A stretch of 64,000 nt of DNA from NCBI RefSeq assembly GCF_900101505.1, contig NZ_FMZI01000001.1, positions 186,001 to 250,000 of the forward strand, read 5' to 3'. The position numbers and the translations under genes were made by a program. Shown here piece by piece: positions 24,587-33,557 of this stretch; positions within the stretch are counted from its first letter, which is position 1, and every line of letters starts with the position of its first letter. Origin of the DNA: Antarctobacter albus. Its GTDB lineage: Bacteria; Pseudomonadota; Alphaproteobacteria; Rhodobacterales; Rhodobacteraceae. Under the pieces are notes generated by a model. That model did not search any database. It was not told where the DNA came from and was given only the letters and a program-made list of their open reading frames with translations.

Positions 24587-25169
24587 CGTCTGTCCCCCGT
24601 CTGCACTGTCGAGCGGTCTTTACGCGATGGCTAGACGCAGGGAAAGGGGGCGGATTGCGGCGCATGTGCGCGGAGGCGCGTTATGCTGCAGGTGCGAAGG
24701 CCACGGGATGGGCAGCCTGCGGATCTGCGCTCCAAAAGAGAACCCTTGGCGGAGCGAATTGTCATTCACTCTCCCTTGGCGTGCAATTCCGGAGTATGCC
24801 GAGATGTGAATTTTCGGCCATTTGTCAGAGCGGGTGATGAAAATGCGGGCAAATCTCACGGTCTTTCGGTAATTGACGTATGGTCAACTGTTGGTATGTG
24901 GCCCAGATCAAGCGAGTGTCGTGTCAGGCGCCACACGATATAGCGGGAAATCAGGCGTTGTCCGTCGGGCCAAAAAAAAGGCCGAGCTCAAAGCTCGGCC
25001 GAAGTCCAACAGGGAGGTATGAAGATGAACCGCGAATGAGCGTTTCATCGTTCACATGCCGAATATGTCATCGGAACTGACTCGATCAAGCCATTTTACG
25101 TCGCAGGCGCAGCATTGCCGCTATGCGTGATGCGCATACCACAGTGATTTATGCCCGTTTAGCGAGAGT
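24587..25169. other. 583-base stretch without a clear gene
   Basis: Lies between the purL start and the end of the LysR gene, visibly richer in A+T than its flanks. It must hold the purL promoter on the minus strand. The only strong structure is the minus-strand terminator at 24972-25000. A tiny ORF, ATG-AAG-ATG-AAC-CGC-GAA-TGA (25019-25039), has GGGAGG just upstream on the plus strand but only six codons. Longer open frames here show no coding character. A small RNA ending at the terminator is possible but unproven. Confidence 0.5.
24972..25000 (-). terminator. Strong minus-strand intrinsic terminator
   Basis: On the minus strand GGCCGAGCT pairs with AGCTCGGCC (24980-24988 with 24992-25000) around a three-base loop, followed by eight U. 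It lies 170 bases past the LysR stop codon. Confidence 0.9.
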
Positions 25170-30707: not shown

Positions 30708-31520
30708 ATGGCGGTAGGGATCTTCGACAGCGGCCTCGGTGGGCTGACGGTGCTGGATGCGGTATCGAAACGCCTGCCGGATGTGCCCTTTGTCTATTTC
30801 GGTGACAACAAGCACGCGCCCTATGGTGTGCGCGATGCCGACGATGTCTACAACCTGACCTGCGCGGCAACGGAACGGTTGTGGGACGCGGGCTGTGACC
30901 TGGTGATCCTGGCCTGCAACACCGCCTCTGCGGCGGCGCTGCGCCGGATGCAGGAAAGCTGGATTCCCCGCGACAAGCGCGTTCTGGGCGTCTTTGTCCC
31001 GCTGATCGAGGCGCTGACCGAACGCCAGTGGGGCGACAATTCCCCCCCACGCGAAGTGGCTGTCAAACATGTCGCGCTTTTTGCCACGCCGGCGACCGTG
31101 CGCAGCCGGGCCTTTCAGCGCGAACTGGCCTTCCGCGCCATCGGCGTCGATGTCGAGGCGCAGGCCTGCGGCGGTCTCGTCGATGCCATCGAGGAAGGCG
31201 ACATGATCCTGGCCGAGGCGCTGGTGCACAGCCATGTCGATGCGCTGAAACGCAAGATGCCGGCCCCGGAGGCGGCGATCCTGGGCTGCACGCATTATCC
31301 GCTGATGCAGGACATCTTCCAGGAGGCGCTGGGACCGGATGTGTCGGTCTATTCGCAGGCCAATCTCGTGGCGGAATCGCTGTCGGACTACCTGGAGCGA
31401 CATCCGGACATGATGGGCCCGGGCACGGAAAGCGGTTTCCTGACCACGGGCAACCCGCTGAAGGTCTCGCAGAACGCAACACAGTTCCTGCGCCGCAAGA
31501 TTTCTTTCGACGCGGCCTGA
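30708..31520 (+). CDS. murI: Glutamate racemase
   Basis: Protein of 270 residues, usual for MurI, supplying D-glutamate for peptidoglycan. Both catalytic Cys are present: Cys70 in [11 protein letters not shown] and Cys194 in LGCTHYPLM. The N-terminal [12 protein letters not shown] and the [10 protein letters not shown] segment are typical. It has an unusual charged insertion near residue 107 ([16 protein letters not shown]). A GGCGGGAG run before the ATG can serve as ribosome site. It follows the acyltransferase gene on the same strand. Confidence 0.93.
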
Positions 31521-31544: not shown

Positions 31545-32288
31545 CTATTCTGACGTGCCGGGCCGTTCGCCCACGTCGCCGGACCACCAGGCGCGCTTGA
31601 TCCCCTGGTAGACGGTGATTTCCTGGCCAGGCTGATAGGGGCTCAACTGGTGTTCCTTGTACGCCAGGCTTTCACCGTGGCGCCCGTTTTGCTCTTCCCA
31701 GGTCAGTCGATAGCGATAGCGGTTGTTGACGCGGTAATTGGTGCGCTTGGTGCCCGTCACCCGCGCGGTCTCGCGCGTGCCGTAGCGCCTGGCGCGCACG
31801 GCGGCCACGGCCTTTCGTCCGGGAAACCACATGGCCAGCAGGGCCGCGACGCCAAAGATCAGCGCAATCCAGCGCGTGATGACCGAGGCAGTCCGATTTT
31901 CACCTCGGCGCAGCTCGGTCGTGTCGGGAGCGCTTTCAAGATACCAGATCGGCACGCGGTCGCCGATGTCACTGTTGCGATAGAGGCTGGAACCGACCGA
32001 GCGGGTTAGGTTGATCGTCTCACCCCTGTTGGTCTCGAAGCGGAGCTGGAAGTAATAGGTGACTTCGCGATCGCCGTCGCTGTCGGTGGTGACGCGCTGG
32101 TACTTGTCCAGAAGGTCGGCGGCGGTCTCGCGCCCCTCGGCGTCAAAGCGATGCGCGAGGTTCAACGAGATGTGGCTGATGAAGGTCAGGATCGAGAGGA
32201 TCAGAACGAAAATCAGCGTGAGCCATCCGCCCATTCGCCAGAACAACCGCCAGAGCGGTACGGGTCTGTCACCTGCCACTTGTGCCAT
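31545..32288 (-). CDS. DUF3592 domain membrane protein
   Basis: Protein of 247 residues starting MAQVAGDRPVPLWRLFW (32288). Membrane segments lie at about 20-42 and 139-160. Between them a beta-rich domain (KYQRVTTDSDGDREVTYYF, FETNRGETINLT, DRVPIWYLESAPD) matches DUF3592, where a conserved strand ends in V..WYxPxNP-like text. A second similar soluble domain follows the last membrane segment (ARVTGTKRTNYRVNNRY, GQEITVYQG), so it is a double-domain version. Function unknown. It converges with murI and is divergent from the argC leader. Confidence 0.75.
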   Translation of the reverse strand: MAQVAGDRPVPLWRLFWRMGGWLTLIFVLILSILTFISHISLNLAHRFDAEGRETAADLLDKYQRVTTDSDGDREVTYYFQLRFETNRGETINLTRSVGSSLYRNSDIGDRVPIWYLESAPDTTELRRGENRTASVITRWIALIFGVAALLAMWFPGRKAVAAVRARRYGTRETARVTGTKRTNYRVNNRYRYRLTWEEQNGRHGESLAYKEHQLSPYQPGQEITVYQGIKRAWWSGDVGERPGTSE

Positions 32289-32347
32289 GTCGGCATATTG
32301 GCGGCGACCGCGCCGGGGATCAACCGTGCAAGCGCCGGTTTTCTCCA

Positions 32348-32376
32348 TTGATTACAGGGGAGGGGGCGGCTATAGC
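32348..32376 (+). promoter_or_regulatory. Candidate sigma-70 promoter for the argC leader
   Basis: TTGATT (32348-32353), 17 bases, TATAGC (32371-32376). Spacing is ideal and each hexamer matches four of six consensus bases. Transcription would begin near 32383, just before the leader ribosome site at 32385. Confidence 0.5.
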
Positions 32377-32398
32377 CTTTGATCAGAGGAGCCCTGTC

Positions 32399-32434
32399 AT
32401 GACCGCCTTTCACGCCCTGCGCCTGCGACGATGA
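32399..32434 (+). CDS. Putative arginine-rich leader peptide upstream of argC
   Basis: Eleven-codon ORF encoding MTAFHALRLRR and ending in TGA. The last four codons are Arg(CGC)-Leu-Arg(CGA)-Arg(CGA), and CGA is generally a rare Arg codon in high-GC genomes. AGAGGAG (32385-32391) lies seven bases before the ATG, stronger than most sites in the window. A hairpin with a pyrimidine-rich tail begins three bases after the stop, and argC starts 94 bases after the stop. This is the layout of amino-acid biosynthetic attenuators such as trpL or hisL: stalling at Arg codons when arginyl-tRNA is short would prevent the terminator. Too short for statistical coding evidence; inferred from arrangement. Confidence 0.6.
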   Translation: MTAFHALRLRR

Positions 32435-32436
32435 CC

Positions 32437-32478
32437 CGCCAGCCGTCCCCTTCGGCGGCGCCTTTCTCCTTTATTTCC
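32437..32478 (+). terminator. Putative argC attenuator hairpin
   Basis: CGCC-A-GCCG (32437-32445) pairs with CGGC-GGCG (32453-32460) with one bulged A and a seven-base loop. The stem is followed by CCTTTCTCCTTTATTTCCC. The tail is pyrimidine-rich but not a pure U run. The stem starts three bases after the leader-peptide stop, so a ribosome on the leader would interfere with its folding. An alternative antiterminator pairing was not worked out. Confidence 0.45.
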
Positions 32479-32528
32479 CGCATTTCGCGCGGTGCGACCC
32501 GTGCGCCCCAATCTGCAGGTGACCTGAC

Positions 32529-33557
32529 ATGACCCATTCCATCGCCATCATCGGTGCCTCCGGCTACACCGGGGCCGAGCTGATCCGGCTGCTCGCCACC
32601 CACCCCTCGTTCGAGATCAAGGCACTGGCTGCCAATTCCAAGGCCGGCCAAAGCCTTGCCCAGGTCTTTCCGCACCTGCGCCACCTGGACCTGCCGGATC
32701 TCGTGACCTGGGAGCAGATCGACTTTGCCGGGATCGACCTCTGTTTCTGCGCCCTGCCGCACAAGACCAGCCAGGAGGTGATCTCGCAATTGCCGAAATC
32801 GGTGAAGATCGTCGACCTCTCGGCGGACTTCCGGCTGCGCGATCCGGCGGACTACGAGAAATGGTACGGCAATGCGCATGTGGCCGTGGAGACGCAGGCC
32901 GAGGCGGTCTATGGTCTGACCGAGTTCTACCGCGACCAGATCAAGGGCGCGCGGCTGGTGGCGGGCACGGGCTGCAACGCGGCAACCGGGCAATACATCC
33001 TGCGGCCACTGATCTCGGGCGGGTTGATCGACCTCGACGAGATCATCCTGGACCTGCAATGCGGCGTCAGCGGTGCGGGACGGTCGCTGAAGGAAAACCT
33101 GCTGCACGCGGAGCTGTCGGAGGGCACAAATGCCTATGCGGTCGGCGGGACGCATCGTCACCTGGGCGAGTTCGACCAGGAGTTCAGCGCCCTGGCGGGC
33201 CGCCCGGTCGAGATCCAGTTCACCCCGCACCTTGGCCCGTTCAACCGGGGCATCCTGGCGACCGCCTACCTGAAAGGCGATCCGCAGGCGATCCATGCCG
33301 CGTTGACCACGGCCTATGCGGATGAACCCTTTGTCGAGGTGCTGCCCTTTGGCGAGACCCCTTCGACCCACCATGTGCGCGGTTCGAACTTTTGCCATCT
33401 CGGGGTCAGCGGCGACCGGCGTCCGGGGAGGGCCATTGTCGTGGCCGCGCTGGACAATCTGTGCAAGGGCAGTTCGGGGCAGGCGTTGCAGAACGCCAAC
33501 CTGATGCTGGGCGAGGCGGAAACCGCCGGGTTGATGCTGGCGCCCTGTTTCCCCTGA
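32529..33557 (+). CDS. argC: N-acetyl-gamma-glutamyl-phosphate reductase
   Basis: Protein of 342 residues, the length of ArgC. It makes N-acetylglutamate semialdehyde, the third step of arginine synthesis. N-terminal NADP loop [25 protein letters not shown] near 98; catalytic Cys149 in [35 protein letters not shown]; and [13 protein letters not shown] near the C-terminus. A short leader ORF rich in Arg and a hairpin precede it, suggesting attenuation. The start at 32529 follows CAGGTGACC, a modest ribosome site. ccmE follows on the same strand after 213 bases. Confidence 0.95.

Follow-up and report, generated by a model that had tools for sequence, protein, structure and literature searches.

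A candidate arginine-responsive attenuator with a conserved CGA-CGA codon pair upstream of argC in Antarctobacter albus and other Rhodobacteraceae

The trp, his, and leu attenuators of proteobacterial biosynthetic operons share a layout in which a promoter of their own is followed by a short open reading frame (ORF) with tandem codons for the product amino acid, a stop codon near a terminator hairpin, and the biosynthetic gene downstream. The uORFC-8-2 motif upstream of cysS, known from the same bacterial order (Rhodobacterales), has an upstream ORF with two tandem codons, an intrinsic terminator, and predicted ribosome-mediated attenuation (PMC8632094). In the window, the whole 64,000-nucleotide stretch of Antarctobacter albus DNA that was analyzed, a leader of this type lies directly before argC. 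From its sequence and that of its relatives, this element probably couples argC to the arginine supply by ribosome-mediated attenuation of transcription. It has one hairpin and lacks a detected antiterminator, and is treated here as a variant acting like an attenuator for that reason. The pieces of the element and its target gene are as follows.

32348..32376, + strand: leader promoter, TTGATT - 17 nucleotides (nt) - TATAGC (-35 at 32348-32353, -10 at 32371-32376), read from the sequence
32385..32391, + strand: Shine-Dalgarno AGAGGAG of the leader ORF, 7 nt before the ATG at 32399, read from the sequence
32399..32434, + strand: leader peptide ORF of 11 codons, MTAFHALRLRR and stop; the peptide differs between species, the frame and end are kept
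32426..32431, + strand: codon pair CGA-CGA, putatively regulatory; the kept part of the element both in stand-alone leaders and where murI carries it
32437..32460, + strand: terminator-like hairpin, CGCCAGCCG..CGGCGGCG, from folding, comparison of 21 leaders, and arm swaps
32461..32478, + strand: pyrimidine/T-rich tract CCTTTCTCCTTTATTTCC after the hairpin, from the pooled composition of the 21 leaders
32529..33557, + strand: N-acetyl-gamma-glutamyl-phosphate reductase gene with Pfam semialdehyde dehydrogenase domains, which we take to be argC from the original prediction and knowledge of the family

Every piece described for the leader (promoter, Shine-Dalgarno, ORF, and hairpin) is found at its place in the sequence. 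This bears out the original prediction of a promoter with 17-base spacing, a Shine-Dalgarno, and an 11-codon ORF before argC; the hairpin it placed near the stop is also present, its stem beginning 2 nt past the leader stop and not three. The ORF reads ATG ACC GCC TTT CAC GCC CTG CGC CTG CGA CGA TGA, and a 44-nt segment holding the hairpin folds at -13.1 kcal/mol (z -2.28). The pattern AGGAN{5,11}ATGN{12,42}CGACGATRA has three matches in the 5.26-Mb genome and its backward form none; on reading these matches, an ATG that shares the frame of CGA CGA was seen at argC alone, so that the leader pattern there is more than chance. A 33-codon ORF also overlaps the leader (32431-32532): it opens at the ATGA of the leader stop and closes with a TGA that overlaps the start of argC. 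It is taken to be chance, because TAA stands in place of that ATGA site in four leaders of the first set.

Conservation was assessed over 204 distinct argC loci of the Rhodobacteraceae (of 210, after removal of duplicates). The named loci are the best 80 of 557, and the one-per-genus sample covers 149 genomes of 149 genera, with argC in 136 and upstream DNA of 130 used, the window's own locus among them (of the other six, four were weak and two partial). The 204 loci divide into 17 with a stand-alone leader, 105 with the codon pair borne by murI, and 82 with neither; the corresponding counts in the one-per-genus sample are 9, 60, and 61 (n=130). A filter that required Arg codons near the stop, not CGA, was applied to the window and the 80 named loci, with the Shine-Dalgarno judged by eye. 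In 13 of 81 loci it gave an ATG-started ORF that is preceded by a stretch resembling a Shine-Dalgarno, has Arg-Arg at or close to its end, and lies in roughly the same position (unrelated ORFs also came up in other loci), and in 13/13 of these leaders Arg-Arg is encoded as CGA CGA. Four further stand-alone leaders (L085, L094, L098, and L150) came from a search for CGACGA itself.

All 17 stand-alone ORFs contain CGA-CGA, directly followed by the stop in 15; the stop comes one codon later in L003 and two later in L044. The ORFs are 10-13 codons long and their peptides vary (MTAFHALRLRR, MIAYPALRLRR, MFRATPLLRR, MYDIIAPLSRR, MPGFGLILRR, MTKGHLALRR, and MSVSPVNRLRR), and their remaining Arg codons are a mixture of CGC, CGT, CGG, AGG, AGA, and CGA. 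The leader is present in 5/5 other genomes of the window's genus, all ending LRR with CTGCGACGATGA. In L150 an apparently leaderless ORF (MKQNCTSSLRR and stop), 86 nt before argC, has a strong hairpin with a TTTTCTTCG tail; L098 is a weak member with no clear hairpin. On the tree of the 204 loci, presence or absence of the stand-alone form switches no fewer than 5 times. A short, translated-looking leader ORF with tandem codons for the amino acid of the pathway is kept in relatives: Shine-Dalgarno, ATG, Arg codons at the stop, and hairpin recur although peptides and stems differ, which supports the original prediction. What that prediction missed is that, on these comparisons, conservation rests in the codon pair CGA-CGA, and that many relatives bear it in the tail of murI.

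The promoter and the GC hairpin recur as well. When the best-scoring promoter-like pair ahead of CGACGA is taken from each of 16 leaders, its spacer measures 17 nt in 15, TTGA is present in 13, and the -10 begins with TA in 15; the mean score is 5.7 vs. 2.8 (sd 2.2) in shuffles, and the pair ends 33-49 nt before the CGA codons. With five genus members added to these 16 loci, the hairpin's 3' end lies 30-44 nt after the first CGA in 19/21 leaders (the exceptions being L094 and L098), and the terminator score exceeds the mean of 12 shuffles in 20/21. When the 21 leaders are pooled, T makes up 45% and purines 21% of positions +38..+53, and T falls to 21% further downstream; the T fraction there is 0.45 in leaders vs. 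0.26 in the murI type (85 loci; Mann-Whitney p 5e-7). The arms of the hairpin co-vary, a leader's own arms pairing better than swapped arms in 12/16 leaders. The 21 leaders and the arm swaps thus carry the signature of a putative intrinsic terminator between the leader ORF and argC. A hairpin of this kind might also be the plain terminator of a trans-acting small RNA, with argC served by another promoter, and the Sinorhizobium attenuator RNA and peptide with trans functions (rnTrpL/peTrpL) offer a precedent (PMC10117765); however, neither leader peptide nor RNA sequence is kept between species and the kept partner is argC, and we regard this explanation as extremely improbable. As a separate observation by eye, L002 has two mutually exclusive hairpins after its leader ORF, GTGCCTGCC/GGCAGCAC and ACAAGGC/GCCTTGT followed by ATTTTCC, which are not kept elsewhere.

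CGACGA is invariant at the nucleotide level, and it might be a DNA operator, or a site on RNA for a protein or small RNA, with its reading as codons incidental; where murI carries it, the protein fixes the frame, so the phase gives no evidence there. However, the stand-alone hexamer keeps the frame of a rapidly changing ORF in 17/17 loci and adjoins the stop in 15 of them, synonymous sites adjoining the murI pair are free, 6734 nt of murI-argC spacers contain no copy of the hexamer, and its position relative to the promoter differs between the stand-alone and murI forms. Hexamers also occur upstream of argF (6/17) and argJ (3/17), 9/34 loci together, but the genes holding them do not have them in the CGA frame, and the long upstream frame never reads CGA CGA. 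No CGA-CGA leader is kept upstream of argG, argJ, argF, or argB (17 Rhodobacteraceae loci each). We give a nucleotide motif very little credence and favor codons read by a ribosome.

The choice of codon can be set beside the decoding capacity of the genome. Its 49 tRNA matches include tRNA-Arg anticodons ACG, CCG, CCT, and TCT, with no TCG, which leaves only tRNA-Arg(ACG), presumably inosine-modified, for CGA; a fragment at a contig end received no call, and a four-base anticodon was assigned to one gene (L447, G000:C14:18911-18984, for which ARAGORN reports cttc). CGA is read poorly, and Arg pairs containing it raise de-attenuation of the Salmonella his leader (PMC4046918); the reasons why sensitive isoacceptors make good attenuator codons have also been described (PMC1183508). 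As for a repressor, ArgR has been placed in the gammaproteobacteria and described as absent from other classes (PMC5343134). The original prediction noted that many alphaproteobacteria lack a clear ArgR, and the genome here agrees: the ArgR-family profile PF01316 finds no match in it (0/1), 9/14 control genomes being positive, and on this search the argC locus does not qualify as part of an ArgR regulon.

We infer that argC is controlled by arginine, by a mechanism that would run as follows. The kept promoter would start a short leader RNA with an ORF that is free to vary in peptide but carries CGA CGA immediately, or one or two codons, before the stop. With plentiful arginine, the ribosome would pass CGA-CGA, terminate, and leave, the hairpin would form, and RNA polymerase would stop before argC. 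Under arginine limitation, tRNA-Arg(ACG), the reader of CGC and CGT as well, would lose its charge and the ribosome would stall on the CGA pair, sitting on or against the 5' arm of the hairpin, so that transcription would run into argC. No antiterminator would be required.

In this the element would differ from the trp, his, and leu attenuators, as it does in the amino acid (arginine), in using one fixed rare synonymous codon, and in having its two regulatory codons at the stop. uORFC-8-2 differs in its cysteine codons, with UGC and UGU both used, in preceding a tRNA synthetase gene, and in its two prominent stems, with the codons inside the first (PMC8632094). No report of an argC leader peptide or of murI-argC arginine control in Rhodobacterales was found in the literature searched, in which subscription journals are mostly outside coverage. 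No Rfam family matches above its gathering score at the argC leader; in the search, which took in the whole window, the sole match is SorX small RNA (RF02784) at 24974-25044 on the - strand (49.7 bits, above gathering score).

The second form of the element concerns murI, which in the window is separated from argC by another gene.

30708..31520, + strand: murI (Asp/Glu racemase family), with codons -9/-8 CGC CGC in the window
31545..32348, - strand: DUF3592 gene between murI and argC; the ORF is given from its outermost ATG, a likelier start being near 32291

The argC leader of the window thus sits between the DUF3592 gene and argC, with murI on the same strand as argC. In 105/204 loci, CGA CGA occupies murI codons -9/-8, 25-165 nt before argC. 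Where murI lies 36-145 nt from argC, CGA makes up 201/235 Arg codons at -9/-8 vs. 56/2093 elsewhere in the same genes; the counts are 27/48 vs. 11/485 where murI is closer than 36 nt, and 2/34 vs. 8/304 beyond 145 nt, where the bias is gone (the p-values for this distance effect ignore kinship). Binned by distance, the pair is found in 0/6 loci below 25 nt, 10/23 at 25-35 nt, 11/16, 34/41, and 22/30 in the next bins, 22/24 in the bin up to 100 nt, 5/16 at 101-145 nt, 1/9 at 146-400 nt, and 0/11 beyond. This amounts to 104/156 loci with murI within 145 nt vs. 1/20 farther away (L091, with murI at 165 nt), and 11/20 loci having a distant murI carry a mini-gene with CGA-CGA before argC. Among the last 45 murI codons (144 loci), strong synonymous bias is confined to -9 and -8, with G per sequence of 4.29 and 3.43 and 0.64 at the next position. 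Outside the last 12 codons of murI, the Arg-Arg pairs of that gene and of argC are CGA-CGA in 4/467.

From these counts, support for a murI-borne sensor is good at the level of a codon constraint and weak at the level of mechanism. In relatives, murI codons -9/-8 may also report arginine supply to argC, which suggests a possible second role for an ordinary gene in amino-acid sensing. We consider it an even question whether the tail of murI, a cell-wall gene, is a built-in arginine sensor, its two codons fixed only because argC lies downstream, and is rebuilt as a mini-gene when the genes part. The bias might instead be unrelated to argC and reflect murI itself, for example slow translation near the stop, and no terminator follows the murI codons; this we consider unlikely, given CGA shares of 201/235 near argC vs. 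2/34 far from it and the return of the pair as a mini-gene in those 11/20 far loci. An argC tree of 171 loci requires no fewer than 17 switches between near and far murI; on the pair test given below, linkage of the codon pair to murI-argC proximity is suggestive only.

In murI-argC spacers (e.g., L152, L163, and L181), a TTGC..-17-TA.. pair recurs right after the murI stop, with its -10 about 25 nt before argC; by eye it is often TTGCGG-17-TACATC, the -10 again about 25 nt before the ATG. If argC were mainly transcribed from such a spacer promoter, the murI codons would be no simple attenuator; they would have to act on readthrough RNA or by relieving interference caused by transcription of murI.

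Beyond the family, 142 Alphaproteobacteria were sampled, 68 of them with argC, and 48 loci were read (L335-L382). In 31/48, rpsI lies upstream of argC, its C-terminal Arg-Arg also at -9/-8, and the first Arg of the pair (-9) is CGA in 11/31 vs. 28/515 other rpsI Arg codons (p 2e-6), compared with 1/30 in Rhodobacteraceae rpsI. This bias hints that argC may long have used the tail of whatever gene precedes it. 

In 38 loci picked as odd or without the element, no other convincing leader was found; in L205, an ORF (MLPPEPETVCRRR and stop) 138-96 nt before argC ends CGG CGG CGC and is either a possible CGA-free Arg leader or a chance ORF.

Several results weigh against attenuation at argC or its extension to upstream genes. 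The terminator score exceeds the best of 12 shuffles in only 6/21 leaders, so that single leaders are weak, and the entire window leader folds no better than shuffles (z -0.76). The stem starts 10-23 nt after the first CGA, which in about half of the leaders is past the expected reach of a stalled ribosome (about +16). No antiterminator was found, five alternative pairings beating swapped ones in just 8-11/16 leaders; the proposed trp/his/leu layout is therefore not supported in full, the Shine-Dalgarno, the ATG, the tandem Arg codons at the stop, and the terminator-like hairpin being kept in relatives but no alternative pairing standing out. A consensus promoter scan did not list the window's leader promoter, which therefore rests on conservation. 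Part of the stand-alone set was chosen by CGACGA itself, and 82/204 loci (61/130 in the one-per-genus sample) have neither form. For the murI form, a T-tract after the pair was not found (T 0.26 at +38..+53, 85 loci) and hairpins are weak: in 88 loci, one over the murI stop pairs better in its native form than after swapping of spacers in 74%. A promoter-like pair scores above 7 in 15/104 murI-argC spacers (14% vs. 6% of shuffles). Phylogenetically independent pairs for linkage number 7.1 for, 1.0 against, and 2.9 tied (median p 0.07, not significant), which also favors a murI bias unrelated to argC. In rpsI, the full pair is CGA-CGA in 1/31, and CGA is not rare in rpsI of Rhodobacteraceae (109/725).

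The leader might instead act on translation or messenger RNA decay, stalled ribosomes altering access to the argC start or protecting the RNA. In Salmonella speF, two consecutive Arg codons in the leader ORF orf34 sense arginine in this manner, although that leader controls ornithine decarboxylase through RNA structure/RNase G and Rho, has its pair early in the ORF, and worked alike with rare and frequent Arg codons (PMC6386406). The leader peptide of S. aureus rbfL likewise senses arginine limitation with rare Arg codons, although these are AGA/AGG and it represses translation of a biofilm regulator by start-site occlusion (PMC13009471). At argC, however, CGA-CGA lies about 47-196 nt from the start over both forms, a spread too wide for occlusion of the start site. 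The T-tract speaks for termination, and base pairing between the hairpin and the region downstream is not conspicuous. We consider post-transcriptional control improbable here and retain transcription attenuation as the preferred reading of the window element.

Bacteria without ArgR need other ways of sensing arginine, and the window element offers a candidate in a large marine family. If the murI form holds, the fixing of CGA, a codon normally avoided, at two places would have an explanation, and regulatory codons can sit in the 3' end of a normal gene, where they would be detectable as a frozen synonymous codon, a signal overlooked by genome annotation and by RNA-structure searches.
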